A stretch of DNA of 64,000 nt. Origin: Polaromonas sp. (GTDB taxonomy: Bacteria > Pseudomonadota > Gammaproteobacteria > Burkholderiales > Burkholderiaceae_C). Below, in pieces: positions 13,319-42,441 of this stretch (positions are counted from its first letter, which is position 1; each line of letters starts with the position of its first letter). A program made the position numbers and the translations under genes. Location: assembly GCF_029945685.1 (NCBI RefSeq), contig NZ_JAQSDA010000003.1, positions 186,001 through 250,000 of the forward strand. Reading direction: 5' to 3'. The notes beneath the pieces are model-generated. The model did not search any database and was not told where the DNA came from. It saw nothing but the letters and a program-made list of their open reading frames with translations.

Positions 13319-15166
13319 GTGCGTCCTGACGGAGTCAGACTAATCTACATCTCCTTCCTAATTAACTTGCAGCACTTTCACCCCATTCCCGCGTTGCTCC
13401 GTCGCCTTTGGCATCACATCGATCCGCGGCGTCGGGTGCAATTCGGCTTATTGTTTTTGCTCATGATCCTGGCGTCCTTTGCCGAGGCCGTGAGCATCGG
13501 TGCTGTGCTGCCCTTTTTGGGGGTGCTCACAGCACCGGAGAGGGTGTTCGCTCACCCGCTTACCCAACCGTTTATCCAGGCCCTGGGCCTTACCGAGCCA
13601 AAACAACTGCTGCTGCCCCTGACCATCGCTTTTGCCATGGGAGCACTTTTTTCAGGTGTCATACGACTGGTTTTGTTGTGGGCTCAAATCCGGCTGGGTC
13701 ATGCCGTCGGGGCAGACTTCAGTATCAGCATTTACCGAAGAACCTTGTATCAACCCTATGCGGTGCACGTCGCACGCAATAGCAGTGAGGTCATCGCAGG
13801 GATTACCAACAAGGCAAACATCGTCGTGCATCAGATGGTGCTTCCCGCACTCACCATCCTCAGCTCCAGTTTGATGCTCTTCACCATTTTGGTTGCCTTG
13901 CTTGCAATTGAACCGCTGATTGCTTTTGCCGCCTTTGTGGGTTTTGGCGCCATTTATGCCTTGGTGATTCTTGTCACCAAGAAACGCCTCATGCGAGATG
14001 GACAACGCATCAGCCGTGAGCAGAATCAGGTTGTCAAGGCTTTGCAGGAAGGCTTGGGTGGAATTCGTGACGTTCTTATCGACGGCACGCAAGCTGCATA
14101 TTGCAGTATTTACCGTAGCGCGGACTTGCCGCTACGCCGCGCCACTGCAAACGTGCAAATCATAAGCAGCAGTCCTCGCTTCGCCATCGAAGCGTTGGGG
14201 ATGGTTCTCATTTCTGCACTTGCCTTGTCGATGGTTGGCCGGCCGGGCGGTATTGCCAATGCCATCCCTGTTCTTGGCGCACTCGCGCTTGGCGCGCAGC
14301 GCCTGTTGCCTGTATTGCAACAAGCCTATTCCAGTTGGACTTCCATGCTTGGTGCCCAGGCTTCGCTGAGTGATGCGCTGGACTTGCTTGATCAACCGCT
14401 TCCCGAGCATGCCGACGCACCGCCAGTTGCGCCCCTTGCATTCAAGGACAGAATTACGCTGAACCAGCTGGCCTTTCGTTATACGCCGGGGACGCCGTGG
14501 GTATTGCAGGGCGTTGATCTCGATATCCCGAAAGGAAGTCGCATTGGATTCATGGGGACTACGGGAAGTGGGAAAAGCACCTTGCTGGATCTCATCATGG
14601 GTTTGCTCCATCCTGTCGCGGGCAGCCTGGCCGTCGACGGTGTGAATATAACCCCTCAAAATCACCGCGCCTGGCAGTCGCATATTGCGCATGTGCCTCA
14701 GGCCATCTTTCTGGCTGACGCCACTATTGCGGAGAATATTGCCTTTGGGATGCCGCTGGATCAAATTGATCACGCCCGAGTTAGGCAAGCAGCGCAGAAA
14801 GCCCAGATTGCCCAGGACATCGATTCCTGGAGCCAGCAATACAACACGGTCGTCGGTGAGCGCGGCGTGCGTCTGTCAGGAGGGCAGCGGCAGCGCATAG
14901 GCATTGCCCGTGCACTCTACAAGAAGGCTGACGTTATAGTGTTTGACGAGGCTACGAGTGCGCTTGACAACGAGACCGAATTGGCGGTTATGGAAGCAAT
15001 CGAGAATCTGGGTGAAGAAATCACGGTGCTCATCGTTGCCCATCGCCTTACAACTCTCCAGAACTGCACCCATGTCGTCGACTTGAGCGACGGCCAAATC
15101 AAGCGCAGTGGCAGTTATCAGGATATTGTCGAGCAGACAGTAAGTACAAATGAACATCCAGTCTAA
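13319..15166 (+). CDS. ABC transporter, PglK-like lipid-linked oligosaccharide flippase (fused TMD-NBD)
   Basis: A 615-residue fused ABC exporter half. About six transmembrane helices occupy the first 330 residues, beginning with GLLFLLMILASFAEAVSIG, which resembles the PglK/lipid-linked-oligosaccharide flippase N-terminus. The ATPase domain has Walker A GTTGSGKST, signature LSGGQRQRIGIARALY, Walker B VIVFDEATSALD and an H-loop VAHRLTT. No Wzx-like flippase was recognised in the window, so this protein probably moves undecaprenyl-linked units to the periplasm using ATP. The GTG start has no strong ribosome binding site and the true start may be up to 27 codons later. The end overlaps legB by 17 bases. 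Confidence 0.82.
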   Translation: MRPDGVRLIYISFLINLQHFHPIPALLRRLWHHIDPRRRVQFGLLFLLMILASFAEAVSIGAVLPFLGVLTAPERVFAHPLTQPFIQALGLTEPKQLLLPLTIAFAMGALFSGVIRLVLLWAQIRLGHAVGADFSISIYRRTLYQPYAVHVARNSSEVIAGITNKANIVVHQMVLPALTILSSSLMLFTILVALLAIEPLIAFAAFVGFGAIYALVILVTKKRLMRDGQRISREQNQVVKALQEGLGGIRDVLIDGTQAAYCSIYRSADLPLRRATANVQIISSSPRFAIEALGMVLISALALSMVGRPGGIANAIPVLGALALGAQRLLPVLQQAYSSWTSMLGAQASLSDALDLLDQPLPEHADAPPVAPLAFKDRITLNQLAFRYTPGTPWVLQGVDLDIPKGSRIGFMGTTGSGKSTLLDLIMGLLHPVAGSLAVDGVNITPQNHRAWQSHIAHVPQAIFLADATIAENIAFGMPLDQIDHARVRQAAQKAQIAQDIDSWSQQYNTVVGERGVRLSGGQRQRIGIARALYKKADVIVFDEATSALDNETELAVMEAIENLGEEITVLIVAHRLTTLQNCTHVVDLSDGQIKRSGSYQDIVEQTVSTNEHPV

Positions 15167-16166
15167 AACATCAAGAATTCTCGTCACCGGCGCGGACGGT
15201 TTCATCGGATCCCACCTGACCGAGGAGCTGGTGCGGCAGGGACATACGGTGCGCGCTTTCGTTCTCTATAACTCCTTCAATTCCTGGGGCTGGCTTGATC
15301 AGTGCGCGCAGGATGTAAAAGACAAGATCGAAGTTTTTTCCGGTGATATTCGTGACCCGCACGGCGTCAAAATGGCAATGACGGATTGTGACGTGGTACT
15401 TCATCTGGCAGCCCTTATCGCGATCCCTTATTCCTATCACTCGCCTGACACCTATGTGGATACCAATATCAAGGGAACTCTGAACGTGCTGCAGGCGGCG
15501 CGCGAGCTTGGCGTCAAAAGAGTGGTCCATACATCAACCAGCGAAGTCTATGGCACGGCACGTTTTGTACCCATCACCGAGGAGCATCCACTGCAAGGTC
15601 AGTCGCCGTACTCTGCCACCAAGATAGCAGCAGATCAGCTGGCGTATTCGTTCTACGCATCCTTCGGGCTGCCCGTGGTTATTGCGCGGCCCTTCAACAC
15701 GTATGGACCGCGCCAGTCCGCGCGCGCCGTAATTCCGACAATCATTACTCAGATCGCCAAAGGGCAACGGCAGATCAAGCTGGGTGCGGTGTCTCCCACG
15801 CGCGATTTCAATTTCGTGCAGGACACGGTCGCGGGTTTTATCGCCATACTCAATTCAGATCAGGGCTTGGGCGAGGTTGTCAACCTCGGCAGTAATTTCG
15901 AAATCTCTATTGGTGAGACCGCCCGGCTAATCGCCGAAGTCATGAATGCGGAGATCGAGATTCTGACTGACGAAGCCCGCTTGCGCCCCGAAAACTCGGA
16001 AGTCGAGCGACTATGGGCCGGCAATGCCAAGGCAAAGGAACTCTTTGGCTGGCAACCTGAATACGGAGGGCGTGAGGGATTCAAGCGCGGTCTGGCTGAG
16101 ACTGCCGTCTGGTTCACAAAGCCAGACAATCTGCGTGCTTACAAGACGGACATTTACAACCTTTGA
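15150..16166 (+). CDS. legB: NAD-dependent 4,6-dehydratase LegB
   Basis: A 338-residue extended SDR with VTGADGFIGSHL, HLAALIAIPYSYHSP, STSEVYG and the YSATKIAADQLA Tyr/Lys pair. The unusual AIPYSY segment and the overall sequence match LegB, which removes water from GDP-GlcNAc to give the 4-keto-6-deoxy intermediate of legionaminic acid synthesis (established in Campylobacter jejuni). It starts inside the end of the flippase gene and is followed immediately by legC, legH, legI and legG, which supports the call more strongly than sequence alone. No ribosome binding site could be separated from the upstream coding sequence. Confidence 0.88.
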   Translation: MNIQSKTSRILVTGADGFIGSHLTEELVRQGHTVRAFVLYNSFNSWGWLDQCAQDVKDKIEVFSGDIRDPHGVKMAMTDCDVVLHLAALIAIPYSYHSPDTYVDTNIKGTLNVLQAARELGVKRVVHTSTSEVYGTARFVPITEEHPLQGQSPYSATKIAADQLAYSFYASFGLPVVIARPFNTYGPRQSARAVIPTIITQIAKGQRQIKLGAVSPTRDFNFVQDTVAGFIAILNSDQGLGEVVNLGSNFEISIGETARLIAEVMNAEIEILTDEARLRPENSEVERLWAGNAKAKELFGWQPEYGGREGFKRGLAETAVWFTKPDNLRAYKTDIYNL

Positions 16167-16171
16167 ATGAT

Positions 16172-17350
16172 ATGAGCACATCGCCGCTTCTTGCTGAGAA
16201 AATTGTTGCTGCCATTAGGAGCGTTGTCGGAACTCGGCCTGCGGTCCTGCACGAGCCCAGCTTTTCTGGAAACGAATGGCAATATCTCAAGGAGTGTCTC
16301 GATTCCACATTCGTTTCCTCGGTGGGAAAGTTTGTTGACCGATTTGAGGTTGAGCTGGCGGCGTTTACAGGCGCCAAGCACGCGGTCGCGGTTGTCAACG
16401 GGACCGCGGCTCTGCATATCGCCTTGAAGCTGGCGGGTGTCAAAGCCGACGATGAGGTCCTGATCCCGGCTCTTACCTTTGCAGCTACTGCCAACGCGGT
16501 GACCTATTGTGGGGCCACCCCCCATTTGATCGATAGCGATGTCCGAAACCTGGGCGTAGATGCCGCAAAACTCAGAGAGTACCTTCGCAATCGTACCGAT
16601 CAACGCCTCGGCCAATGCGTAAATCGTGCTACTGGTCGCATCATCAGGGCGTTGGTGCCAATGCACACTTTTGGTCATCCGGTTGACCTGGATGGCGTTC
16701 TTTCCGTTGCATCTGACTTCAATCTTGCACTGGTGGAAGATGCAGCCGAGTCGCTGGGAAGTTATTACCACGGAAAACATACCGGGACGTTTGGAAAATT
16801 GGGAACCTTGAGCTTTAACGGCAACAAGACGATCACTACCGGCGGAGGAGGCGCGATTCTGACCAACGACGCAGAACTCGCGGTTCGTGCCAAGCACCTG
16901 ACCACAACTGCCAAGGTGCCGCACGCGTGGGAGTATCGGCATGACGAGGTGGGGTACAACTACCGAATGCCCAACCTGAACGCGGCCCTGGGTTGTGCGC
17001 AGTTGGAAAAATTGCCCGACATGCTTTCTTCAAAGAGGGCATTGTTTGAAAGGTACCACGCCGCTTTTTCGCAGGTGCCCGGTGTCGAGCTGGTGAAGGA
17101 GCCTGAACAATGTCGTAGCAACTACTGGTTGCAGGCCTTGTTGCTGGACGTGGCGCAATCGGATCAACGCGATCTGATATTGAAGGCAACCAATGACGCG
17201 GGTCTCATGACGCGCCCGGTCTGGATTCTCATGCATGAGTTGACGCCGTTCAAGGATAGCCAGCGTATGGATCTGTCTGGTGCCCTTTCGCTGGCACAGC
17301 GCCTGATCAACATTCCGAGCAGCGCGGGTCTGGTGCCCGTCGGTCCATGA
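16172..17350 (+). CDS. legC: LegC-family PLP-dependent sugar aminotransferase
   Basis: A 392-residue DegT/DnrJ/EryC1 family aminotransferase. It adds an amino group at C-4 of the 4-keto product of LegB, using pyridoxal phosphate. The PLP lysine is in SFNGNKTITTGGGG, with NGTAALHIALKL and LVEDAAESLGSYY as further family segments. The ATG at 16172 was preferred to a TTG nine bases earlier. Its stop overlaps the legH start as ATGA, consistent with coupled translation of enzymes catalysing consecutive steps. Confidence 0.9.
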   Translation: MSTSPLLAEKIVAAIRSVVGTRPAVLHEPSFSGNEWQYLKECLDSTFVSSVGKFVDRFEVELAAFTGAKHAVAVVNGTAALHIALKLAGVKADDEVLIPALTFAATANAVTYCGATPHLIDSDVRNLGVDAAKLREYLRNRTDQRLGQCVNRATGRIIRALVPMHTFGHPVDLDGVLSVASDFNLALVEDAAESLGSYYHGKHTGTFGKLGTLSFNGNKTITTGGGGAILTNDAELAVRAKHLTTTAKVPHAWEYRHDEVGYNYRMPNLNAALGCAQLEKLPDMLSSKRALFERYHAAFSQVPGVELVKEPEQCRSNYWLQALLLDVAQSDQRDLILKATNDAGLMTRPVWILMHELTPFKDSQRMDLSGALSLAQRLINIPSSAGLVPVGP

Positions 17351-17964
17351 GCAAGCCCGGCCTCATCCTCGTTGGTGCGGGTGGGCACGCGCACGCGTGC
17401 ATTGACGTCATCGAGCAGCAGGGGCGTTACCAGATCGCGGGATTGGTCGGCATGCCCGACGAAGTGGATGCCTTGCATATTGGGTATTCTGTTATCGCAA
17501 CTGACGCCGATCTGCATGAACTGGCCGGGCAATATCGGCATGCCTTTATCAGCGTTGGCCAGATTCGGTCCCCCGATGTCCGAATCAGACTTTATTTCCG
17601 GCTCCTTGAATTGGGCTTTCAACTGCCGACCGTCATTTCGCCAGCGGCTTATGTCTCTCGTCATGCCACTATTGGCGTGGGCAGCATCGTTATGCACGGT
17701 GCAGTCGTCAATGCCGGCGCCGAGGTGGGGGACAACTGCATCATCAACTCCCGGGCGCTTGTTGAGCATGACGCGATAGTGGAGGCCAACTGCCATATCT
17801 CGACCGGTGCCATTCTTAATGGCAATACCCGCGTTGGCGCAGGGAGCTATGTTGGCAGTGGCAGCGTCATCAGGGAGGGCATTGCGCTGGGCGAGGGTTG
17901 CATGGTCGGCATGGGGCTGTCCGTGCGGCACAGTCAAGCAAGTGGAACCCGCTTCGTAGGATAG
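17347..17964 (+). CDS. legH: LegH/NeuD-family sugar O/N-acetyltransferase
   Basis: A 205-residue protein with an N-terminal Rossmann-like subdomain (LVGAGGHAHACIDVI) followed by a left-handed beta-helix of hexapeptide repeats, visible as regular I/V-G spacing from about residue 105 to 190 (ATIGVGSIV, AEVGDNCII, TRVGAGSYVG). This is the NeuD/PglD/LegH type. In this context it should transfer acetyl from acetyl-CoA to the 4-amino group made by LegC. The likely catalytic His lies in ALVEHDAIVE. It overlaps legC by four bases and ends 7 bases before legI. Confidence 0.88.
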   Translation: MSKPGLILVGAGGHAHACIDVIEQQGRYQIAGLVGMPDEVDALHIGYSVIATDADLHELAGQYRHAFISVGQIRSPDVRIRLYFRLLELGFQLPTVISPAAYVSRHATIGVGSIVMHGAVVNAGAEVGDNCIINSRALVEHDAIVEANCHISTGAILNGNTRVGAGSYVGSGSVIREGIALGEGCMVGMGLSVRHSQASGTRFVG

Positions 17965-17971
17965 ACAGATC

Positions 17972-18979
17972 ATGAAACAACGAACTCTCATCATTGCTGA
18001 AGCGGGCGTGAATCACAACGGCGACCTCGATCTGGCCAGGCAGCTGATTGAGGCTGCTGCGGCAGCCGGCGCCGACCTGGTGAAGTTCCAGACCTTCAAT
18101 GCAAACCGCTTGGTCACGCGTGGTGCGAAAAAAGCCGACTACCAGAACAAGACCACCGACAGTCAGGAGTCACAGCATGAAATGCTGCGCCGTTTGGAAC
18201 TCAGTCCTGAAATGCACCAGGAGCTCGTCGCACACTGTGCCAAGTCCCATATCGGTTTCTTTTCTACCGGATTCGACAATGAGAGCATCGACCTGCTTTT
18301 GAGTTTGGGGCAGGATCACTTCAAGATCCCCTCCGGGGAAATTACCAATTTGCCATATTTGCGCCACGTCGGCCGCCTTGGCAAGGCGGTTATTCTTTCG
18401 ACTGGCATGGCAACTTTGGGTGATATCGAGGCCGCTATCGCCGTGCTCGAACAGGCCGGAACGCCGCGTGCCAACATCACGGTGTTGCATTGCACCACGG
18501 AATACCCTACGCCCATGGCCGAAGTGAACCTGCGCGCCATGCAGAGTATTCAAGCTGCGTTTGGTGTGGCGGTCGGGTATTCAGACCATACGGCCGGCAT
18601 CGAGGTGGCTATTGCCGCGGTCGCCATGGGTGCGCTCGTCATCGAAAAGCACTTGACCCTGGACCATCATCTGCCAGGTCCTGATCACAAGGCCAGCCTG
18701 GAGCCCGGCGAATTCAAGGCGATGGTCACGGCGATTCGCAAGATCGAGGTGGCGTTGGGTGACGGGATAAAACGGCTGACTTCCAGCGAACTCAGAAACA
18801 AGCCCATCGCACGCAAATCGCTGGTGAGCAACCGGTCCATCAAGGCAGGTGAGTTGTTCAGCGCAGAAAATATCACTGCAAAGCGACCCGGTACCGGCAT
18901 ATCACCCATGCGCTGGGATGAGGTCATCGGGCGCCGCGCGGCGCGTGATTATTCCGCAGACGAATTGATCGAGTTATGA
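17972..18979 (+). CDS. legI: N,N'-diacetyllegionaminate synthase (NeuB family)
   Basis: A 335-residue nonulosonate synthase that condenses phosphoenolpyruvate with a 6-carbon diacetamido sugar. The NeuB barrel begins IIAEAGVNHNGDLDLA, with LVKFQTF, FKIPSGEITNLP, STGMATL and GYSDHTAGIEVA; the C-terminal 60 residues form the antifreeze-like SAF domain (KSLVSNRSIKAGE). It could belong to the sialate, legionaminate or pseudaminate branch, but legB, legC and legH upstream and an NeuC-type epimerase (not PseG) downstream point to legionaminate. The TGA overlaps the next ATG. Confidence 0.9.
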   Translation: MKQRTLIIAEAGVNHNGDLDLARQLIEAAAAAGADLVKFQTFNANRLVTRGAKKADYQNKTTDSQESQHEMLRRLELSPEMHQELVAHCAKSHIGFFSTGFDNESIDLLLSLGQDHFKIPSGEITNLPYLRHVGRLGKAVILSTGMATLGDIEAAIAVLEQAGTPRANITVLHCTTEYPTPMAEVNLRAMQSIQAAFGVAVGYSDHTAGIEVAIAAVAMGALVIEKHLTLDHHLPGPDHKASLEPGEFKAMVTAIRKIEVALGDGIKRLTSSELRNKPIARKSLVSNRSIKAGELFSAENITAKRPGTGISPMRWDEVIGRRAARDYSADELIEL

Positions 18980-20148
18980 GCCGCAAAATCTGTGTCATTA
19001 CCGGCACCCGGGCCGAATACGGCTTGCTGCGCTGGGTAATGCAAGGCATCAAGGACGATCCTGATCTGGTGCTTCAGGTCGTCGCAACGGGTACGCACCT
19101 GTCTCCCGAGTTCGGCCTCACCTATCTAGAGATCGAGCAACATGGATTCCAGATTGATCGCAAGATCGAGATCCTTGTGGGCGCCGATACGCCGGCTGCG
19201 ATTGCCAAGTCCATGGGCCTCGGCTTGATCGGGTTCGGTCAGGCGCTGAGCGAATTGCGGCCCGATTTGATCGTGGTGCTCGGCGATCGGTTTGAGATTT
19301 TTGCTGCGGTAGCCGCTGCCCTGGTTGCGCGCGTGCCGGTTGCACATTTGCATGGCGGCGAACTCACCGAGGGCGCTTTTGACGAAGCCCTTCGCCATTC
19401 CATCACCAAGATGTCTCATTTGCATTTTGTGGCAGCGGAAGAGTACAGGCAACGAGTGATTCAGCTGGGGGAACAGCCAGACCGCGTGTTTCTGGTCGGC
19501 GGTCTTGGCGTCGACAGCATCAAACGAATCCATCTTCTGGACAGAGCTGCACTTGAAGCATCGCTCGAGTTCAGCCTTGGCGAGAAGAGCTTGCTCATCA
19601 CCTTTCATCCAGCCACTCTTGAGACCCACGCGGCGGCCGATCAAATGGCGGAACTGTTGGCCTCACTGGATGAACTGCACGATACCCAGCTTGTTTTTAC
19701 CTTGCCAAATGCAGATACCGAGGGCCGGATTCTTATCCAGATGGTGACGCAATTTGTTGAACGGCACGCCAATGCTCGCCTATATGCATCGCTTGGCCAA
19801 TTGCGGTATTTATCTTGCGTTGCCCAGGTTGATGGTGTGGTGGGCAACTCATCCAGCGGCTTGGCGGAGGTTCCCAGTTTCAAAAAGGGGACAGTCAACA
19901 TTGGCGACCGCCAGCGCGGGAGGCTGCAGGCGGCGAGCATCATCAACTGCGCACCTGAGCGAGGGGACATTACGGCCGCGCTGGAGCGGCTGTATTCCGC
20001 AGGCTTCCAAACGAGCTTGAGGCAGGTACGCAATCCCTACGGGGAGGGTGGCGCCACCGAGAAGGTGCTCAGAATTCTCAAGGAGCATCCCATCGGGCAC
20101 ATTGCAAAGAAGTTTTTTCATGATCTGCAGCAACCAAGCAAGGTGTGA
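18976..20148 (+). CDS. legG: Hydrolysing sugar-nucleotide 2-epimerase, NeuC/LegG type
   Basis: A 390-residue GT-B-like epimerase beginning VITGTRAEYGLLRWVM, with VATGTHLSPEFG, LVVLGDRFE-type segment DLIVVLGDRFEIFA, LHGGELTEG and VVGNSSSGLAEVP, all typical of NeuC. In the legionaminate route it inverts C-2 and removes the nucleotide, giving 2,4-diacetamido-2,4,6-trideoxymannose for LegI. Whether it uses GDP- or UDP-sugar is not directly visible; the guanylyltransferase-type ptmE gene next door favours GDP. The start overlaps the legI stop as ATGA. Confidence 0.9.
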   Translation: MSRKICVITGTRAEYGLLRWVMQGIKDDPDLVLQVVATGTHLSPEFGLTYLEIEQHGFQIDRKIEILVGADTPAAIAKSMGLGLIGFGQALSELRPDLIVVLGDRFEIFAAVAAALVARVPVAHLHGGELTEGAFDEALRHSITKMSHLHFVAAEEYRQRVIQLGEQPDRVFLVGGLGVDSIKRIHLLDRAALEASLEFSLGEKSLLITFHPATLETHAAADQMAELLASLDELHDTQLVFTLPNADTEGRILIQMVTQFVERHANARLYASLGQLRYLSCVAQVDGVVGNSSSGLAEVPSFKKGTVNIGDRQRGRLQAASIINCAPERGDITAALERLYSAGFQTSLRQVRNPYGEGGATEKVLRILKEHPIGHIAKKFFHDLQQPSKV

Positions 20149-20151
20149 CAA

Positions 20152-21204
20152 GTGAGCCCCACTGAAGAACGCTGGCGCCAAGCCATTCTCCCTGTCAAAA
20201 CCTCCATACAGCATGCGATACGCAGCCTTGACCAGGCGTCCATCAAAATTGTCATGGTTGTTAATGAGGCCGGCGAACTGGAAGGTACGATTTCCGATGG
20301 CGACATAAGGCGCGGTTTGCTCAAGGGGCTTGACCTCAGCAGTCCTATTGCCAGCGTCATCCATCGGAATGCCCTGGTGGTTACTCCAGAAATGGGGCGC
20401 GATGTGGTGCTCCAGCTTATGGGTGCCAACAAGATACAGCAGATACCTATCGTGAATGAGTTGCGTCAGGTAGTGGGTGTGCACCTTTGGGATGAGATCA
20501 CCACGTTGCCGGCGCGCTCCAATCTGATGATCATCATGGCGGGCGGCATGGGCACACGTCTGCGTCCCTACACGGAGACCTGCCCAAAGCCGTTATTGCC
20601 CGTAGCGGGCAAACCGATGCTCGAACATATCATCGAGCGAGCCAAGCTCGAGGGTTTTAGTCATTTCGTGCTCGCTGTTCATTACCTGGGGCATATGATT
20701 CAGAGTCATTTTGGCAATGGAGGGCAGCTGGGGGTACAGATAGACTATCTGAACGAGAAATCGCCGTTGGGAACCGCCGGTGCACTGGGTCTTCTGAGTC
20801 CGCGGCCAGGTGCCCCTTTTGTTGTGACAAATGGGGATGTCATTACCGATATCCACTATGGTGAATTGCTGGACTTCCACATCCGTCATAACGCCATGGC
20901 GACCATGGCGGTTCGCATGCACGAATGGCAGCACCCTTTTGGTGTTGTGCAGACTCGGGGTATCGAAATTGTAGGATTCGAGGAAAAACCGGTGGCCCGC
21001 AGCCACATCAATGCAGGCGTTTATGCACTCGAGCCGGACGCGTTAAATCTGCTGAGCCAAGACGCACACTGCGACATGCCTACCCTGTTTGAACGCCTTC
21101 AGGCGAAGGCCATGCGCACAGTTGCATACCCCATGCACGAACCCTGGCTGGATGTAGGCCGCCCGGACGATTTGAATCGCGCAAACACCGAAAATAGTAA
21201 TTAA
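20152..21204 (+). CDS. ptmE: CBS-domain sugar-1-phosphate nucleotidyltransferase (PtmE/LegX-like)
   Basis: A 350-residue protein with a pair of CBS domains (about residues 10-120; TISDGDIRRGLL, QIPIVNELRQVVGVH) followed by a nucleotidyltransferase domain with IIMAGGMGTRLRPYT, CPKPLLPVAGKP and VVTNGDVITDI. This domain order is the PtmE type, reported in Campylobacter to make GDP-GlcN/GDP-GlcNAc and so prime the GDP-linked legionaminic acid pathway. CBS domains suggest adenine-nucleotide control. It uses a GTG start with AAGGTG upstream. Presence of this gene argues against a simple UDP-linked route. Confidence 0.84.
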   Translation: MSPTEERWRQAILPVKTSIQHAIRSLDQASIKIVMVVNEAGELEGTISDGDIRRGLLKGLDLSSPIASVIHRNALVVTPEMGRDVVLQLMGANKIQQIPIVNELRQVVGVHLWDEITTLPARSNLMIIMAGGMGTRLRPYTETCPKPLLPVAGKPMLEHIIERAKLEGFSHFVLAVHYLGHMIQSHFGNGGQLGVQIDYLNEKSPLGTAGALGLLSPRPGAPFVVTNGDVITDIHYGELLDFHIRHNAMATMAVRMHEWQHPFGVVQTRGIEIVGFEEKPVARSHINAGVYALEPDALNLLSQDAHCDMPTLFERLQAKAMRTVAYPMHEPWLDVGRPDDLNRANTENSN

Positions 21205-21212
21205 ACCTAAAC

Positions 21213-22547
21213 ATGGATTCCGAAATGGAAAAAATAAAGTATCCCCAGCCTGTCGATTTGAGCCTGTTCGCAAAAGATGCAAAAAGTCCGAGCGCTCGTT
21301 ATGGACTGCCGGAAACGGTTAGTTACTGCAAGAAGTGCGTCATTTCCAACCAGCGTCCAAACTCTGCAGTGGAGTACAAGCACACCAAAGACACCAAGAA
21401 GGCGACCATCCATTTTGACGAAAATGGTGTTTGCGACGCCTGTAACTTTGCCGAGCGCAAGCATCACGGCATTGATTGGGCTGAACGCGAAAAGCAACTA
21501 CGGGACCTTTGTGACAAGCATCGCAAAAATGACGGTTCCTATGATTGCATCGTCCCCGGTTCAGGGGGAAAGGACAGCTTTTACGCATCCCATATCCTGA
21601 AGACTAAATACGGCATGCACCCGCTCACTGTCACTTGGGCGCCCCACGTCTACACCGAATGGGGCTGGAAGAACTTCCAGTCCTGGCTCCATGCTGGACA
21701 CGACAATTATCTGATGACGCCCAATGGCCGCGTGCACAGGTTGTTAACGCGGCTCTCGACGGAACTGCTTTTCCATCCCTTCCAGGCGTTCATGTTTGGG
21801 CAAAAGGCACTTGCCCCCAAAATGGCGCTGCTGTTTAACATTCCCCTGGTCTTCTACGGCGAAAATGAAGCGGAATACGGTAACCCGATCGGGGACACGG
21901 ATACCGCAAAACGTGACTGGTCTTATTTCGCGGCAGAAGATCAGTCGAAAATCTATCTCGGCGGTGTTTCCGTCGCAGATTTGAAAGAGAATTTTGGATT
22001 GGATCAGAATGACTTGCAGCCTTATCTGCCAGCCGACCCCAACCAGATCTCCGAAAAGAATATTGAGGTGCATTATCTTGGCTACTATCTGAAATGGCAC
22101 CCGCAGTCCTGTTATTACTATGCGGTCGAACACGGAGGTTTTCAGGCCTCCCCTGAACGGACACCCGGAACTTACTCGAAGTACAACAGCATTGATGACC
22201 GCATTGATGATCTTCATTACTACACCACGGGAACGAAATTCGGTATTGGACGGGCCAGCTATGATGCGGCACAGGAGATCCGCTCAAGGGACATCAATCG
22301 CGAGGAAGGGGTTGCCTTGGTCAAGCGCTTTGACCATGAGTACCCCGAACGATTTATTGAGGAAATGTTTCAATATTTGAGCTTGCCGGAGAAGGAGTTC
22401 CCGGAAGCCAGCAAGATGTTCGAAAAGCCGTTGATGGATCGTGAGTATTTCCGCCTGCTGACGGATCAGTTTCGGTCCCCCCATCTTTGGTATCAGGAAA
22501 ATGGCGAATGGAAGTTGCGCCACCCGGTTTCAAACGAAAAAGAATAA
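21213..22547 (+). CDS. N-acetyl sugar amidotransferase (WbuX/PseA/PtmG-like)
   Basis: A 444-residue PP-loop ATPase with N-terminal cysteines (YCKKCVISNQRP, then CDACNFAE) that suggest a metal site, the ATP pyrophosphatase motif PGSGGKDSFYASH near residue 118, and FYGENEAEYGNP. This matches the N-acetyl-sugar amidotransferases that turn an N-acetyl into an N-acetimidoyl (acetamidino) group, as WbpG in Pseudomonas and PseA/PtmG in Campylobacter. These enzymes take ammonia from a HisH/HisF pair, and such a pair follows immediately. The substrate here is probably the legionaminic acid or its CMP form. Two ATGs twelve bases apart make the exact start uncertain. Confidence 0.87.
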   Translation: MDSEMEKIKYPQPVDLSLFAKDAKSPSARYGLPETVSYCKKCVISNQRPNSAVEYKHTKDTKKATIHFDENGVCDACNFAERKHHGIDWAEREKQLRDLCDKHRKNDGSYDCIVPGSGGKDSFYASHILKTKYGMHPLTVTWAPHVYTEWGWKNFQSWLHAGHDNYLMTPNGRVHRLLTRLSTELLFHPFQAFMFGQKALAPKMALLFNIPLVFYGENEAEYGNPIGDTDTAKRDWSYFAAEDQSKIYLGGVSVADLKENFGLDQNDLQPYLPADPNQISEKNIEVHYLGYYLKWHPQSCYYYAVEHGGFQASPERTPGTYSKYNSIDDRIDDLHYYTTGTKFGIGRASYDAAQEIRSRDINREEGVALVKRFDHEYPERFIEEMFQYLSLPEKEFPEASKMFEKPLMDREYFRLLTDQFRSPHLWYQENGEWKLRHPVSNEKE

Positions 22548-22556
22548 GAGGATACG

Positions 22557-23327
22557 GTGAGGAACGTTCGCATCATTGCTCGTCTGGATATCAAAGGTCC
22601 AAACCTGATCAAAGGCATCCATCTCGAAGGTTTGCGGGTTATCGGATCGCCGGGCGAGCATGCCTTACGCTATTACCTGCAAGGTATTGATGAGTTGATT
22701 TATATGGATTGCGTGGCGAGCCTTTATGGACGTAACCACCTGGGAAGCATAGTCAGCGCCGCAGCCAAGGATATCTTTGTGCCGATGACTGTAGGTGGTG
22801 GAATTCGTTCGGTGGAAGATGCCACACAGATTCTGCGGGCTGGGGCGGACAAAGTCGCCATCAATACCGCAGCAGTCAGCAATCCCCAACTCGTTACGGA
22901 CATAGCTCGCCGTTTTGGGAGCCAGTGCATGGTGCTCTCGGTGGAGGCCAAGCAGGTGGGCCATGAGCGCTGGGAGGTTTACACCGACAATGGCCGCGAG
23001 CGCACAGGACTTGATGTGGTCGAGTGGGTAAAACGTGGCGTGGCCTTGGGAGCTGGGGAGGTTTTGCTCACATCAGTCGACCGTGAAGGCACTCGCAAAG
23101 GTTTTGATATATCGCTGGTACGAGCTGTTGCGGCGGAGGTGTCTGTCCCGCTCATTGCGAGCGGAGGCATGGGCAAGCCGGAGGACTTGGCGGACGTTGT
23201 TCGAGAGGGCGGCGCAGATGCTGTGGCCATGGCGGACATCCTGCATTACAAGCGCTCGGAAGTTGGGATTATCAGGGCTGTGGCCATGGCAGAGGGCTTG
23301 GGAGTGAGAAATTATGAGCGCACCTGA
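22557..23327 (+). CDS. HisF-like ammonia-channel partner of the sugar amidotransferase
   Basis: A 256-residue TIM barrel of the HisF family, with [14 protein letters not shown] at the N-terminus, [22 protein letters not shown] and [12 protein letters not shown]. Its active site departs from biosynthetic HisF: the usual CLDVKDGRVVKG is [13 protein letters not shown], and the IDAK segment carrying the second catalytic Asp is VEAK. It is therefore unlikely to make imidazole glycerol phosphate; it more likely passes ammonia from the HisH-like glutaminase to the amidotransferase upstream. The GTG start has AGAGGA upstream. It overlaps the HisH-like gene by 14 bases. Confidence 0.85.
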
Positions 23328-23961
23328 AGTCATCGTCATTGATTACGGTGTGGGTAACTTGTTGAGCGTGCAGCGCGGGCTTGAGCATTGCGGCGCCAAA
23401 GTCACATTGACTGCAGATCCGGAGCGAATTCTTTCTGCCAAGCGGGTCGTATTGCCTGGGGTGGGGGCGTTTGAAAATGCCATGATGGCGCTGGGCGCGC
23501 TCGATCTGGTTGGCGTGATCAAGGAGGTTGGCCGGCGAGAGACCCCTCTGCTTGGTATTTGCCTGGGGATGCAACTCCTGCTTGATGAAAGCGATGAGTT
23601 TGGAATTACTGCCGGACTGGGTCTGATTCCAGGGCGTGTCGTCGCTGTTCCGGTTCAATCGACATCAGGCGATGTTCAAAAGGTCCCTCACATCGGCTGG
23701 AACGCATTGTTGCCATCGAGTACACGCCTTGATTGGAATGGGACCTTGCTGCAGGATAACCGTCCGGGTGACGCTGCCTATTTCGTGCATTCCTTTATGG
23801 CCGTCCCCACCGATCCTGTGCATCGCATTGCCGATTGCATGTATGGCGGGCATGGAATTCCAGCCGTGATTGGCCGCGACCATATAACAGGCTGCCAGTT
23901 TCACCCTGAAAAGAGCGGCGAAGTGGGCTTGAAGATCCTTCGAAGGTTCTGTGTCAGTTAG
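23314..23961 (+). CDS. HisH-like glutamine amidotransferase subunit
   Basis: A 215-residue class I glutaminase. The nucleophile Cys is in GICLGMQLL and the His/Glu pair is in QFHPEKSGEVG, so the catalytic triad is complete; IDYGVGNLLSV and VLPGVGAFE are HisH signatures. It should release ammonia from glutamine when bound to the HisF-like protein. Its location inside a sugar locus, between an amidotransferase and a legF gene, means it is a locus-specific paralogue rather than the histidine-pathway enzyme. The reading frame overlaps both neighbours (14 and 11 bases), suggesting stoichiometric production. Confidence 0.88.
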   Translation: MSAPEVIVIDYGVGNLLSVQRGLEHCGAKVTLTADPERILSAKRVVLPGVGAFENAMMALGALDLVGVIKEVGRRETPLLGICLGMQLLLDESDEFGITAGLGLIPGRVVAVPVQSTSGDVQKVPHIGWNALLPSSTRLDWNGTLLQDNRPGDAAYFVHSFMAVPTDPVHRIADCMYGGHGIPAVIGRDHITGCQFHPEKSGEVGLKILRRFCVS

Positions 23962-24985
23962 TCGTGTCCTTGTCGTAGGTTTGGGGAGCATTGGCAAGCT
24001 TCATTTGCGCTTGGCCAGGGAATTTCTTCCCCATGCGGATATAAGGGTCCTGCGCCGTGAAGATGGGGCGGTGCCTCCGGAGCAGGCCAATGGAGGCTTT
24101 TCCAGAATGGATCAGGCCATTGCTTTTCGGCCGCAAATAGCGGTCATCGCCAATCCGGCTCCATTTCACCTCAGTGCGGCCCATTCACTGGCAGATGCAG
24201 GCGTGCATCTGATGGTCGAGAAACCTTTGTCAATTGCCGCTGAAGGAGTGCAGCGCCTGATTGAATCCTGTCGCTCGCGTGAGCTGGTCCTGCTGACCGG
24301 CTACAACCTGCGCTTCCTGCCTTCCTTGCAACGTTTTCGCGATCTCTTAAAGCAGAATGTGATCGGAAAGGTTCTCTCCGTGCGTTGTGAGATCGGGCAA
24401 TATCTGCCGTCTTGGCGCCCCGGTGTTGACTACAGGCAGGGAGTGTCGGCACGGCATGATCTGGGTGGCGGCGCATTGCTTGAGCTCAGCCATGAACTGG
24501 ATTATCTCCGCTGGATTTTTGGTGAGGTCGATTGGGTGGACGCTTGTCTGTCTCGACAGAGTCGCCTGGAAATTGATGTCGAAGACACGGCCCATCTGAT
24601 GCTGGGTTTTACGCCGGAGGCAGACAGTCATCGACTGATCGGAACCTTGAGCATGGATCTGTTGCGCCACGATACAACACGGCTGTGTACCGCCATCGGA
24701 GAACTGGGCAGCCTGCGCTGGGACGGATTGACAGGTGCGGTGGAGCTGTTTGAAGCAGGTGCGAAGAACTGGCGTGAGCTTTTCCGCTATCAGCATCAAC
24801 GCGAGGACAGCTATCGCGCGGAGTGGGGAAATTTTTTAGCCTGCATAGAAGGAAAATCGAAACCGTTGGTCAGTGGGGAAGACGGGCTCAAGGTGATGCA
24901 GATCATTGACGCCGTTCGCCAGGCTTCGGTGAGGGGTGGCCGAGTTGTTATCAAGGACCATGCAGCAACGGGGAGGAAAGCTTGA
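23951..24985 (+). CDS. Gfo/Idh/MocA family oxidoreductase (possibly PtmF-like)
   Basis: A 344-residue NAD(P)-dependent sugar oxidoreductase with an N-terminal Rossmann fold (VLVVGLGSIGKLHLRL), the family motif VEKPLS near residue 90, and a C-terminal alpha/beta substrate domain with GGGALLELSHELDYL holding a likely catalytic His. In Campylobacter a gene in the same position between leg genes (ptmF) is needed for legionaminic acid production; equivalence is inferred from context and I cannot align the two. It may act on the hexosamine precursor or on the finished sugar. GTG start, overlapping the HisH-like gene; stop overlaps legF. Confidence 0.78.
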   Translation: MSVSRVLVVGLGSIGKLHLRLAREFLPHADIRVLRREDGAVPPEQANGGFSRMDQAIAFRPQIAVIANPAPFHLSAAHSLADAGVHLMVEKPLSIAAEGVQRLIESCRSRELVLLTGYNLRFLPSLQRFRDLLKQNVIGKVLSVRCEIGQYLPSWRPGVDYRQGVSARHDLGGGALLELSHELDYLRWIFGEVDWVDACLSRQSRLEIDVEDTAHLMLGFTPEADSHRLIGTLSMDLLRHDTTRLCTAIGELGSLRWDGLTGAVELFEAGAKNWRELFRYQHQREDSYRAEWGNFLACIEGKSKPLVSGEDGLKVMQIIDAVRQASVRGGRVVIKDHAATGRKA

Positions 24986-25674
24986 AAGCGGTAGCCTTCA
25001 TTTTTGCCCGGGGCGGCTCCAAGGGCTTGCCCGGGAAGAACATCCGGTCTCTCGGCGGGAAACCTCTGATGGCCTGGGCGATTGAACACGCGCTGGCTGT
25101 CAAACGCATAACGCGGGTGATCGTGTCAACCGACTCCATTGAAATAGCCGAAGTGGCTCGTGCGCATGGCGCAGAAGTGCCCTTTATCAGACCAGCCGAG
25201 CTGGCAGGCGATGACAGTCCGGAATGGTTGGCCTGGCGACATGGGCTCAATTACCTGTTGGACAGCGATGGGGTGTTGCCTGATGCAATGGTGTCTGTGC
25301 CCACCACGGCACCTTTGAGGCAGCCCGAAGACATCGAAAATTGCCTGGATGAATACGAGAAGGGCGATGTGGACATAGTCATCACCGTGACCGATGCGCA
25401 TCGCAGTCCGTATTTCAATATGGTGAAAATTCATCCTGACGGAACAGTCGGCCTGGTCATCCCGCCGGAGTCGGCGGTGGCGCGCCGGCAGGATGCACCA
25501 CAAGTTTTCGACATGACCACCGTGGCATATGTCGCCCGACCGGAGTTTGTCCTCGCGCGCAGTGCCGCCTTTGAGGGAAGGGTGCGTCAAGTCCACGTTC
25601 CAGTGGAACGCGCACTGGATATCGACACACTTCTGGACTTCCGAATTGCGGAGTGCCTTTTGGCTTTACGTTGA
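24982..25674 (+). CDS. legF: CMP-legionaminic acid synthetase (NeuA/LegF family cytidylyltransferase)
   Basis: A 230-residue CTP:acylneuraminate cytidylyltransferase with FIFARGGSKGLPGKNIRSLGG, VSTDSIEIAEVA and VPTTAPLR. It activates the nonulosonic acid as a CMP-sugar for transfer. The start codon is TTG, overlapping the preceding stop as TTGA; it is convincing because GGGGAGGAAAGC immediately precedes it and the next residues are the family N-terminus. The CMP-sugar product has no obvious GT42 or GT52 transferase in the window, so the transferase must be one of the less typical glycosyltransferases downstream. Confidence 0.9.
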   Translation: MKAVAFIFARGGSKGLPGKNIRSLGGKPLMAWAIEHALAVKRITRVIVSTDSIEIAEVARAHGAEVPFIRPAELAGDDSPEWLAWRHGLNYLLDSDGVLPDAMVSVPTTAPLRQPEDIENCLDEYEKGDVDIVITVTDAHRSPYFNMVKIHPDGTVGLVIPPESAVARRQDAPQVFDMTTVAYVARPEFVLARSAAFEGRVRQVHVPVERALDIDTLLDFRIAECLLALR

Positions 25675-25700
25675 TCCCTTTGAGAATTACTGGAAAAAAA

Positions 25701-26870
25701 GTGCTTGAGATATCCCTTGAACCACGTTCGTGCGAGTGTTGCGGCGGCAACAATCTGGAACCTGTCTGGTCCAGCCAGAGCATCGTGACCCGCGCCACGA
25801 ATACGTGGAAATTTCCTTTTAATGTTTCGGTATGCCGCAACTGCGGTTTTTGCTTCGCATCCCCCGGGCCCAAGCGCGATGATCTTGCGCGTTACCACGC
25901 AGATGGACTGGCCGGTCACAAGGAAATCGGGCTTCCGTACTCTGTGGATGCACGAATGGCGGTACTTGAGCGCTATAGCGCGCCGGACGGCGTATTCGCA
26001 GAAATTGGTGGTGACCAGCCGGGTGAATTTCACCGGCGTTGTTCGCCGCTTTTCGGAAAACAGCTTGTCGTCGAAATTTCAGAAGATACACCAGCGGAAC
26101 TCCGCAGTGTGCATGACCTGCCTGAAAACTCCGTCGATGTATTGGCGCACTACGACGTGCTGGAACATGTATCCGAGGTTACGGAATTCCTGGTCGCTTG
26201 CTGTCGCGCATTGCGTCCGGGCGGCGTCATGATCTGTGAAGTGCCAGATCTCCGGTTGTATCCGCGTAATCTGCTGTTGCTTGAGTTTGAACACGTCAAT
26301 CACTTTTCAGCGGCAACTCTCAATGCAATTGCCGGAAAAGCGGGCCTCAGGCTCATAGAACTAGGTCATGTTTGCAGTCGGCCCTACGGATTTCTTTCGG
26401 TATTTCGCAAGGAGGCTTTGGACGTCGTGCCCGAGACCGGTGGCCGCTGTGAATTTATTGATGCTCTGGCGTGCGTTCGCGGCGGTCTGGAGCAGATCCG
26501 GCGTGCAGAGCTGCAGATTGAGATCGTGAGGCAGCAACTTGCCATCATGGGAAAAAGCGGGAAAAAAGTGACCTTGTGGGCGGTGACGGATTTTCTTCGC
26601 CGTCTGCTGGCCGGCTTCACCCTGCCGGAGTCGGTGACGGTGGTTGACTCCGATCCGCGCCGTCAAAACCATCTTGAGAACGATGGGTTGGGGGTGTTGG
26701 AGCCCAAAAATTCCATTGAGCACATCAGGAACAGCGAGTTGCTGGTCATTTGTGCGCCGCGCTACAAAGCTGAAATTATCGAGTGGATAAGGCAACAAAC
26801 AGGAAAGACATTTTCCGGGTCTGAACTGGTGGTTCTGGGATCTGGCCCTTCCGGGGAGACGCTGACGTGA
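25701..26870 (+). CDS. SAM-dependent methyltransferase with N-terminal zinc-finger-like cysteines
   Basis: About 389 residues from a GTG with GGAAAAAAA upstream; the ORF track starts 16 codons earlier inside legF. The N-terminus has CECCGG and CRNCGFCF cysteine pairs as in sugar C-methyltransferases. The central domain has a methyltransferase core (VDVLAHYDVLEHV, LRPGGVMICEVPDL), although the usual glycine-rich SAM loop reads AEIGGDQPGEF and is atypical. The C-terminal 100 residues look like the third domain of that family. It follows legF, so it may methylate the nonulosonic acid or its acetamidino group, as reported for a methyltransferase in Campylobacter; this is inference. Confidence 0.72.
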   Translation: MLEISLEPRSCECCGGNNLEPVWSSQSIVTRATNTWKFPFNVSVCRNCGFCFASPGPKRDDLARYHADGLAGHKEIGLPYSVDARMAVLERYSAPDGVFAEIGGDQPGEFHRRCSPLFGKQLVVEISEDTPAELRSVHDLPENSVDVLAHYDVLEHVSEVTEFLVACCRALRPGGVMICEVPDLRLYPRNLLLLEFEHVNHFSAATLNAIAGKAGLRLIELGHVCSRPYGFLSVFRKEALDVVPETGGRCEFIDALACVRGGLEQIRRAELQIEIVRQQLAIMGKSGKKVTLWAVTDFLRRLLAGFTLPESVTVVDSDPRRQNHLENDGLGVLEPKNSIEHIRNSELLVICAPRYKAEIIEWIRQQTGKTFSGSELVVLGSGPSGETLT

Positions 26871-27574
26871 GCTCGGGCGAAATGGAGACGGTTGTCATTG
26901 TTGGGGCGTCCTCAAGCATTGGCCGGGCGATATCTTCACGGTTTTCATCAGCGGATCGCGTCATTACGACGTATACCTCCCGAATGCCCGAAGGGTCGGA
27001 CCAGCACAATGCCTTGCACTTGGACTTGCGTGAAGATTTGAGCATCGAGCGGTTCGTAGAGCAACTCAAGAAAATCTCTCGGCGGATCGATGTTGTTATT
27101 TTCTTGTCTGGAATACTGCCAGGCAAGGACTTGAAAGGATATGCGTTTGAGGAGGTGGATGAAGTGATGGCCGTGAATTTCAGCGGACAGGCCAAAGTGC
27201 TGATGAGAATGCTGCCCCTCCTGACGGAACGCTCGCGCTTACTGATGTTTTCCTCAATCTCTGCCCAGCGCGGCAGTTTTGATCCAATTTATGCGGCCTC
27301 GAAGGGGGCATTGCTTTCATTCGTGAAGTCCGTGTGTACCCAATTACCCGCTGGCGCACGCGTCAATGCGGTTGCTCCGGGATTGATACAAGACAGTGCC
27401 ATGTTCGTCGAGATGGCAGTGCAAAGGCAGGAGTTTCATCGAAAACAAGTGCCCTCACAACAGTTGCTCGGCCAGCAGGCCCTGGCCGACATTGTTTTCG
27501 ACATATGTCAGCCTCACTGGGCGCATCTCAACGGAGCCTGCATCGACCTGAATGGAGGGCAATATGTCCGATAG
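26867..27574 (+). CDS. Short-chain dehydrogenase/reductase
   Basis: A 235-residue classical SDR. The cofactor motif reads VGASSSIGRAIS, close to the usual GxxxGIG; the catalytic Ser is in MFSSISAQRG and the Tyr/Lys pair in YAASKGAL, followed by VNAVAPGLI. The C-terminus HLNGACIDLNGGQYV is typical of SDRs. It starts at a GTG overlapping the methyltransferase stop (GTGA) and overlaps the next glycosyltransferase gene by 11 bases, so it belongs to the same transcript. The sugar substrate is not known; a ketoreductase acting on a keto-sugar or on a nonulosonic acid derivative is plausible. Confidence 0.8.
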   Translation: MSSGEMETVVIVGASSSIGRAISSRFSSADRVITTYTSRMPEGSDQHNALHLDLREDLSIERFVEQLKKISRRIDVVIFLSGILPGKDLKGYAFEEVDEVMAVNFSGQAKVLMRMLPLLTERSRLLMFSSISAQRGSFDPIYAASKGALLSFVKSVCTQLPAGARVNAVAPGLIQDSAMFVEMAVQRQEFHRKQVPSQQLLGQQALADIVFDICQPHWAHLNGACIDLNGGQYVR

Positions 27575-29513: not shown

Positions 29514-30284
29514 ATGATGCTTGATGAAACCGTTGTCGTTGTGACCGGTGGGGCCGGACTGCTCGGGCGCGTTTTTGTACGCGATATTGTGCAGCACGGA
29601 GGAATCGCAGTTGTAGCCGACATCGATATGGCCGCTGCCGCAAAGTTTGTAAGCGAGCTGCCTGAGCAATACGCGGCTCATGCGTATGCCATGCAGCTGG
29701 ATATAACCGATACGGCATCCGTAGCCGCGCTTATATCCGCCGCCTTTGAACGGTTTGGCCGGATTGATGCCGTGGTGAACAATGCCTATCCGCGCAATCC
29801 CCACTATGGGCGCAAGCTGGAAAATGTGACCTATGAGGATTTCTGCCAGAACCTCTCGCTTCATTTAGGTGGTTATTTTCTTGTAGCACAGCAGTTCGGG
29901 TTGTTTTTCAGGAGCCAGCAGAAGGGAAATATCATTAATATGGCTTCCATTTATGGCGTCATGGCACCGCGCTTCGAGATATATTCCGACACCCAAATGA
30001 CCATGCCCGTAGAGTATGCGGCGATAAAGTCAGCGGTCATTCATTTGACGCGCTATTTCGCGCAATACTTCAAGAACGATCACGTCCGGGTGAATAGCCT
30101 GAGCCCGGGAGGCGTGCTGGATCAGCAGCCGGAGTCATTTCTTCGGAATTACAGGGCGTTTTGCAGTTCAAAGGGAATGCTGGAGGGTAAAGATATTTCC
30201 AGCGTGTTGTTGTTTCTGTTGTCAGATGCCTCAAAATATTTAACCGGACAAAATCTTGTCGTAGATGACGGATTTTCCATATAG
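29514..30284 (+). CDS. ptmA: PtmA-like short-chain oxidoreductase
   Basis: A 256-residue SDR with VTGGAGLLGRVFVRD, NNAYPRNPHYGRKLENVTY, NMASIYGVMAPRFEIY, an MPVEYAAIKSAVIHLTRY Tyr/Lys segment, and SPGGVLDQQPESF. The NAYPRN and YGRK segments and the RFEIY motif are characteristic of Campylobacter PtmA, a flagellin-modification protein required for legionaminic acid synthesis, where its exact chemical step is not settled for me. It is 4 kb from legF here, with a GT2 and UXS between, but supports the legionaminate assignment independently. It starts 2 bases after the UXS stop. Confidence 0.82.
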   Translation: MMLDETVVVVTGGAGLLGRVFVRDIVQHGGIAVVADIDMAAAAKFVSELPEQYAAHAYAMQLDITDTASVAALISAAFERFGRIDAVVNNAYPRNPHYGRKLENVTYEDFCQNLSLHLGGYFLVAQQFGLFFRSQQKGNIINMASIYGVMAPRFEIYSDTQMTMPVEYAAIKSAVIHLTRYFAQYFKNDHVRVNSLSPGGVLDQQPESFLRNYRAFCSSKGMLEGKDISSVLLFLLSDASKYLTGQNLVVDDGFSI

Positions 30285-36204: not shown

Positions 36205-36273
36205 ACTTCGCGAATTGGCCAGTGCCATGCCGTCTGCCCGAAACACTCTGCCCTATTGTTATGTGGTAACACC

Positions 36274-42363: not shown

Positions 42364-42441
42364 AGTCAGGGAAACGAACTTTGGGATGGGCCCGTGTGGC
42401 GGCGGGGAAAAAGCGCTTCTTTCTCCGACCTTTGTTGGCCA

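Follow-up and report, generated by a model that had tools for sequence, protein, structure and literature searches.

A 64,000-nucleotide stretch of a Polaromonas sp. contig (NZ_JAQSDA010000003.1; the whole stretch is called the window below) carries eleven genes, all on the plus strand at 15150-25674, that are predicted to make a nonulosonic acid of the legionaminic type bearing an acetamidino group (the leg operon, Table 1). The order is legB, legC, legH, legI, legG, ptmE, an N-acetyl sugar amidotransferase gene, hisF-like and hisH-like genes, a Gfo/Idh oxidoreductase gene and legF. The genes are translationally coupled from end to end; neighbors overlap by up to 14 bases or are separated by up to 9. 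An initial annotation had listed these eleven genes in this order and presumed a betaproteobacterial host; the coordinates were confirmed, the family models agree and the host is Polaromonas. Curated NCBIfam cut-offs are passed by LegB, LegC, the NeuD/PglB acetyltransferase, the NeuB synthase, the NeuC epimerase, WbuX and HisH. Because homologous blocks with the same gene order occur in many other genomes, the block is not a chance arrangement. A ptmA homologue lies at 29514-30284, outside the span that the initial annotation covered.

Table 1. Genes of the leg operon, followed by neighboring features, with model scores in bits and the cut-offs of the models.
Feature	Position	Strand	Evidence
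legB, C5-retaining nucleoside diphosphate-sugar 4,6-dehydratase	15150..16166	+	TIGR04180 538 bits, cut-off 475
legC, pyridoxal phosphate-dependent 4-aminotransferase	16163..17350	+	TIGR04181 541 bits, cut-off 420; PF01041
legH, NeuD/PglB-family N-acetyltransferase	17347..17964	+	TIGR03570 175 bits, cut-off 160.8
legI, legionaminic-type nonulosonate synthase	17972..18979	+	TIGR03569 508 bits, cut-off 400; PseI model 293, cut-off 340
legG, NeuC-type hydrolysing 2-epimerase	18976..20148	+	TIGR03568 about 470 bits, cut-off 236
ptmE, CBS and nucleotidyltransferase domains (GDP-N-acetylglucosamine route)	20152..21204	+	PF00571 and PF00483; 39% identity with E. coli O-antigen homologue
N-acetyl sugar amidotransferase, WbuX/PtmG type	21213..22547	+	TIGR03573 393 bits, cut-off 203; 72% identity with LpNASAT 8wex
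HisF-like (WbuZ), predicted ammonia-handling partner	22557..23327	+	TIGR03572 280 bits, cut-off 299.7; HisF model about 270, cut-off 295
HisH-like glutaminase	23314..23961	+	TIGR01855 191 bits, cut-off 105
Gfo/Idh/MocA oxidoreductase, PtmF/WeiH homologue	23951..24985	+	PF01408/PF02894; 30% identity with equally placed E. coli O-antigen Gfo
legF, CMP-nonulosonate synthetase	24982..25674	+	PF02348; 54% identity with E. coli O-antigen LegF; LegF-tree clade II
Methyltransferase-domain protein, overlaps legF	25653..26870	+	PF13489; restricted to L002 and L004, the loci nearest to the window
Short-chain dehydrogenase	26867..27574	+	PF13561 95 bits
ptmA, FlagModPtmA-type short-chain dehydrogenase	29514..30284	+	NF006619 348 bits, above cut-off; NF050062 265 bits, cut-off 350; 44% identity with E. 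coli O-antigen short-chain dehydrogenase
PglK/MsbA-like ABC exporter, candidate flippase, overlaps legB	13319..15166	+	PF00005 and PF00664; PglK 252 bits, below cut-off
GT-B-like transferase, weak candidate nonulosonate transferase	33591..35174	+	PF04464 36 bits; BFO_1060-family 77 bits, cut-off 200
Wzy_C protein, polymerase or ligase	36256..37494	+	PF04932 33.9 bits, gathering 31.7
Initiating phosphoglycosyltransferase	40479..41057	+	TIGR03025 221 bits, WcaJ-type C-terminal part
Wzy_C protein, ligase or polymerase	41038..42363	+	PF04932 76.8 bits
WbpM/PglF-like dehydratase	42394..44367	+	PF02719 388 bits

The backbone was assigned from the synthase and its partners. LegI scores above the cut-off of the NeuB-family model, the family to which legionaminic acid synthases also belong (TIGR03569), and below that of the PseI model. 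In a tree of 76 synthases, anchored by E. coli O-antigen and PtmE-locus sequences and without a biochemically proven LegI among its rows, the window LegI falls in a 37-row clade (support 99/96) with the leg synthases of PtmE-bearing loci and the E. coli O-antigen synthases. PseI, Neisseria meningitidis NeuB and synthases of the Legionella type lie outside this clade, as do a small number of additional, remote NeuB paralogues of PtmE-bearing loci. The position of the PseI-specific Phe is occupied by Gly in the window LegI and in all tallied locus sequences (63/63), in agreement with PMC7371886. LegB and LegC exceed the cut-offs of TIGR04180 and TIGR04181, and LegB denotes the route whose dehydratase retains the C5 configuration (PMC8987622). 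PtmE and LegB occur in one cluster, the gene content by which the GDP-linked Campylobacter route is recognized. The initial annotation had named placement of LegI and LegB in sialate or pseudaminate clades as the outcome that would count against it, and neither protein was placed there. Family scores, tree placement and the Gly residue rule out a sialic or pseudaminic backbone and support a predicted legionaminic-type backbone, as had been proposed from the LegB/PtmE gene set.

The acetamidino module that had been read from the three following genes withstood closer inspection. The amidotransferase contains a PP-loop (SGGKDS at 117) and two CxxC motifs (a tetracysteine zinc motif), and so keeps the ATP-binding loop and the four cysteines of the Legionella pneumophila N-acetyl sugar amidotransferase (LpNASAT) of solved structure (8wex; structure and motifs, PMC10607449). 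The HisH-like protein has an intact Cys-His-Glu triad, with the GICLG nucleophile and the HPE motif. The HisF-like protein keeps Asp11, while Glu replaces Asp130 and Arg replaces Cys9 of the HisF subunit of imidazole glycerol phosphate synthase, an enzyme in which the catalytic roles of these residues are well established; the substitutions are consistent with an ammonia channel and not with a histidine enzyme. The two genes were also considered as copies for histidine biosynthesis and rejected as such, since the canonical HisF is encoded on contig C14 of the genome, next to a HisA-like match, and scores higher (368 bits vs. 269 for the HisF-like protein of the window).

We surveyed relatives of the amidotransferase to ask with which sugar genes the module occurs. 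Scanned genome contigs contained 154 relatives, from which 80 loci were fetched, and 58 of these span 18 kb or more; selected for their similarity to the window amidotransferase, the loci are not a random sample. LegI is present in 54 of the 58 well-covered loci (in 52 with an identity of 45% or higher, in L046 and L071 with one of about 45%), hisF and hisH in 56. The amidotransferase-HisF-HisH module accompanies legionaminic-type genes in Pseudomonadota, Nitrospirota and other groups. Given this commonness and the prototype in L. pneumophila lipopolysaccharide (LPS; PMC3766260), the locus is not unusual. In L. pneumophila, the source of the nearest solved amidotransferase, which makes LPS of 5-acetamidino-7-acetamido legionaminic acid (Leg5Am7Ac; PMC10607449, PMC3766260), the 5-acetamidino group was assigned to the homologous gene by comparison with PtmG (PMC3766260). 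On account of the co-occurrence with LegI and this precedent, the module most probably acts on the nonulosonic acid.

Variant sets of these genes were also seen. In two loci from betaproteobacteria, another, divergent amidotransferase gene lies about 3.5 kb downstream of the first (L003, ~14701-15915; L006, ~14703-15917; 44-48% identity with that of the window), possibly reflecting two amidinated sugars or one that is doubly amidinated. Two Bradyrhizobium loci (L014, L015) have an extra hisH-hisF pair upstream of the amidotransferase-hisF-hisH set, giving two glutaminase/channel pairs per locus. The record names of two loci look doubtful for carriers of such leg or amidotransferase genes (L081, a Bifidobacterium breve metagenome-assembled genome (MAG), and L033, a Bordetella parapertussis MAG), possibly through misnaming of the MAG or contamination.

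The survey also indicates that one module serves two backbone routes. The synthase tree splits PtmE-bearing from PtmE-less loci, where PtmE-less means that PtmE was not found within the fetched flanks, whereas the amidotransferase tree requires seven changes of the PtmE label, only two of them forced by starred branches. In locus L012, the clearest case, LegI is 82% identical to that of the window, yet the amidotransferase lies within a clade of PtmE-less loci (100/99). The amidination kit has likely been exchanged between the two routes. By analogy with Legionella and Bacillus (PMC3766260, PMC7439481), the PtmE-less loci would use the UDP route.

Within the genus, the entire block is shared with the Polaromonas MAG K-2018 (L004) at 91-100% protein identity, and LegB exceeds its cut-off in 5 of 87 Polaromonas genomes, the patchy spread expected for a surface-polysaccharide locus. 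The G+C content is about 50-62% (mostly 50-57%) over ~6001-44000 of the window vs. about 60-72% beyond ~45 kb, which is consistent with horizontal acquisition of such a locus.

From the observed gene identities, order, motifs, phylogeny and co-occurrence we infer each chemical step of the following pathway, as well as the C8 configuration and the destination of the product. PtmE would supply GDP-N-acetylglucosamine (GDP-GlcNAc), which LegB, LegC and LegH would convert to a GDP-linked 2,4-diacetamido-2,4,6-trideoxyhexose. LegG would remove the nucleotide and epimerize C2, LegI would condense the sugar with phosphoenolpyruvate and LegF would add cytidine monophosphate (CMP). Ammonia released from glutamine by the HisH-like protein would be channelled through the HisF-like barrel to the amidotransferase, which with ATP would convert one acetamido group, by precedent that at C5, to acetamidino. 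The Gfo/Idh protein (PtmF) and PtmA would form a set with LegF, either feeding glucosamine as in the Campylobacter model or inverting C8 and so producing the 8-epi form. The residue would most likely be joined to the lipid-linked repeat unit of a surface polysaccharide encoded around the operon. We assign a probability of about 0.82 to the reading in which the product of the operon is a 5,7-diamino-nonulosonic acid, activated with CMP, that has a legionaminic-type backbone and a 5-acetamidino group and is most likely used in a surface polysaccharide.

Several points weigh against this reading. LegF has no legionaminic-specific model, PtmA is below the cut-off of its own model (NF050062, 265 vs. 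350 bits) and the HisF-like protein is slightly below that of WbuZ (280 vs. 299.7). C5 as the amidinated N-acetyl position is taken over from Legionella and Campylobacter by precedent, and at C8 the gene content is ambiguous, such that the product may be either legionaminic or 8-epi-legionaminic acid (8eLeg). Elsewhere in the genome, two flagellin genes on contig C16 and two adjacent genes for PglL-type proteins (PglL_A plus Wzy_C) on contig C28 (405661-407768, minus strand) make other acceptors possible.

The two readings of C8 differ in the role given to the genes around legF. The Gfo/Idh gene occupies the position of PtmF/WeiH in Plesiomonas shigelloides and E. coli (PMC4481668), and its product is, judged from sequence, a PtmF homologue. 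The P. shigelloides gene order recurs in L069, L070 and L075, and the order Gfo-LegF-short-chain dehydrogenase (SDR) is conserved. In a LegF tree of 68 sequences (65 sampled loci, the window and E. coli, with biochemically proven LegF, PtmF and Ela sequences not among the rows), a Gfo gene adjoins legF in 31 of the 44 rows of clade II, which contains the window and the E. coli O-antigen LegF, and in 1 of the 24 rows of clade I, which includes Legionella, without Gfo. The single exception in clade I (L064) has a second, clade-II legF beside its Gfo gene. Loci with and without PtmE did not differ in this respect (18/36 vs. 14/32 rows, Fisher p = 0.63). For the split by clade the Fisher test gives 8e-8, which overstates the evidence since the rows are related; supported branches yield five independent Gfo/LegF-clade pairs, with which a sign test cannot reach 0.05. 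Across the 65 loci, the Gfo/Idh protein and the PtmA-type SDR travel with one LegF clade and not with PtmE.

In the Campylobacter model (as cited in PMC4481668), PtmF and PtmA feed the GDP-GlcNAc step. Homologues of both are present in the window, but their distribution over the loci does not follow that of PtmE; because Gfo follows the LegF clade, the survey does not fit this supply role that well. The initial annotation had called the product Leg5Am7Ac-like. The acetamidino module and the legionaminic-type backbone are supported, but the assignment to legionaminic acid proper is not secure, as the Gfo-LegF-SDR composition is shared with loci assigned to 8-epi-legionaminic acid.

A tentative alternative, to which we give somewhat less than even odds, is that the product is 8eLeg5Am7Ac, the Gfo/Idh protein and SDR inverting C8 around CMP activation as in Acinetobacter elaABC/epaAB. 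This would refine the acetamidino-legionaminic reading, which leaves C8 either way, and the confidences in the two are not exclusive. In addition to the association of Gfo with the LegF clade, lgaG is replaced in the 8eLeg loci of A. baumannii by elaABC, of which ElaA is a putative oxidoreductase (PMC9676051), and EpaA (CTP_transf_3 plus aldo-keto reductase) and EpaB (SDR, PF13561) convert pseudaminic to 8-epi-pseudaminic acid, as determined by nuclear magnetic resonance (PMC12053666). Moreover, 8eLeg is present in E. coli O61 and O108 (PMC3628348), PtmF of P. shigelloides shares 52% identity with WeiH of E. coli (PMC4481668), and 8eLeg5Am7Ac is already known from Aliivibrio salmonicida LPS (PMC7371886). 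However, Campylobacter has PtmF and PtmA and makes legionaminic acid, both proteins being assigned to GDP-GlcNAc supply there (as cited in PMC4481668). The window LegB is of the C5-retaining type, whereas the dehydratase of E. coli locus L120 is another one, which does not match LegB significantly. The two E. coli O-antigen loci, L120 and L121, were returned by a DNA search and carry no serotype assignment; ElaA-C were likened to the window proteins by described composition, and the association with the LegF clade rests largely on one deep split. An oxidoreductase and an SDR travelling with a cytidylyltransferase resemble the ela/epa modules in composition, a likeness from which we do not claim membership. 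A search of plasmids with the Gfo protein gave no labelled 8eLeg reference among its matches, and Acinetobacter locus L125, tried as an ela reference, was rejected as a pseudaminic locus since its genes match PseB, PseC and PseI (65-83%).

A broader form of the proposal is possible, though doubtful: Gfo/PtmF, SDR/PtmA and the distinct LegF clade would constitute a mobile C8-epimerizing CMP-activation module, and not glucosamine suppliers, in PtmE-bearing and PtmE-less loci alike, and this locus would make CMP-8eLeg5Am7Ac. If so, the 8-epimer is the product of many loci whose annotation would read legionaminic acid.

For the acetamidino-legionaminic product in either C8 form, the likely destination is a surface polysaccharide, because a candidate flippase, glycosyltransferases, Wzy_C proteins, a phosphoglycosyltransferase and a WbpM-like dehydratase surround the operon. 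Upstream lie rhamnose (rml), UDP-glucose dehydrogenase, GDP-mannose (manC/gmd) and methyltransferase genes and the ABC exporter; downstream lie methyltransferases, SDRs, glycosyltransferases, the PtmA homologue, two Wzy_C proteins, the phosphoglycosyltransferase and the dehydratase. The protein at 33591-35174 is a weak candidate for the nonulosonate transferase. The genomes of L002 (53%) and the Nitrospinaceae locus L009 (34%), both of which bear leg genes, encode full-length homologues, and single-sequence searches gave weak, partial relatives in its family. An iterative profile drifted onto LegG, with its top matches at legG positions, and was discarded.

The initial annotation had favored a polysaccharide over flagellin; the former remains the better guess from the surroundings, although the two flagellin genes and the two PglL-type enzymes make a protein-linked glycan conceivable. 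With the PglL-type enzymes the genome is predicted to have a general capacity for protein O-glycosylation. That the residue is carried on protein, either flagellin or pilin-type proteins modified by the two PglL-like O-oligosaccharyltransferases, appears unlikely. The PglK-like flippase and the short initiating phosphoglycosyltransferase would suit such a route, whereas the two local Wzy_C proteins lack the PglL_A signature and the rhamnose, mannose and many glycosyltransferase genes are typical of a polysaccharide. Maf (PF01973, PF20157) gave no match in the genome, in a search without a bacterial positive control (PF20157 matched no control and PF01973 archaeal controls only) that is not counted as absence. 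Very improbably, the amidotransferase and HisF/HisH proteins modify another repeat-unit sugar (an aminouronic acid or N-acetylfucosamine, FucNAc), as WbpG/WbuX do, and the nonulosonic acid stays diacetylated: the family does act on ManNAc3NAcA-type and L-FucNAc precursors (PMC10607449), but here the module lies within the leg operon, its subfamily accompanies LegI in nearly all well-covered loci, and the nearest solved relative comes from an organism with acetamidino-legionaminic LPS.

These results extend the acetamidino-legionaminic-type surface sugars of Legionella and Campylobacter to an environmental betaproteobacterium; the kind of pathway was already known and the host is new. Environmental genomes often contain this three-protein amidination kit, in combination with either of two backbone routes. 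The genes commonly annotated as PtmF and PtmA go with one kind of CMP-sugar synthetase and not with the GDP-sugar step, a pattern that matters for predicting legionaminic vs. 8-epi-legionaminic acid from genomes.

Among known systems, the L. pneumophila LPS O-chain locus (polylegionaminic acid, Leg5Am7Ac) has the kind of product that is predicted for the window, an acetamidino-legionaminic-type sugar in a surface polysaccharide, and an amidotransferase 72% identical to that of the window. L. norrlandica (L037) has the kit amidotransferase-hisF-hisH-legF-legI-legG-legH-legC, all with counterparts in the window, but PtmE, Gfo and PtmA were not found in its locus. Legionella is assigned a UDP-linked route (PMC3766260), unlike the GDP-type gene set of the window, and its LegI and LegF fall in other clades. 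The Campylobacter CMP-legionaminic pathway, compared by description, has LegB/C/H/G/I/F, PtmE, PtmF and PtmA in common with the window, as well as an amidotransferase of the PtmG type; the window differs in that these genes are part of a polysaccharide locus and have their own HisF/HisH pair, with no Maf found. Also by description, A. salmonicida LPS (8eLeg5Am7Ac) has an acetamidino legionaminic-type sugar and PtmE in its cluster (PMC7371886). The E. coli O-antigen loci (elg-type, as in 8eLeg O61/O108) share the order PtmE-Gfo-LegF-SDR with the window (identities: LegI 53%, LegF 54%, SDR 44%), but have a different dehydratase and no amidotransferase module in the stretch seen. Acinetobacter elaABC/epaAB, likewise compared by description, combine an oxidoreductase and an SDR with CMP activation; EpaA joins a PF02348 cytidylyltransferase domain to an aldo-keto reductase in one fusion protein, where the window has a Gfo/Idh protein instead.

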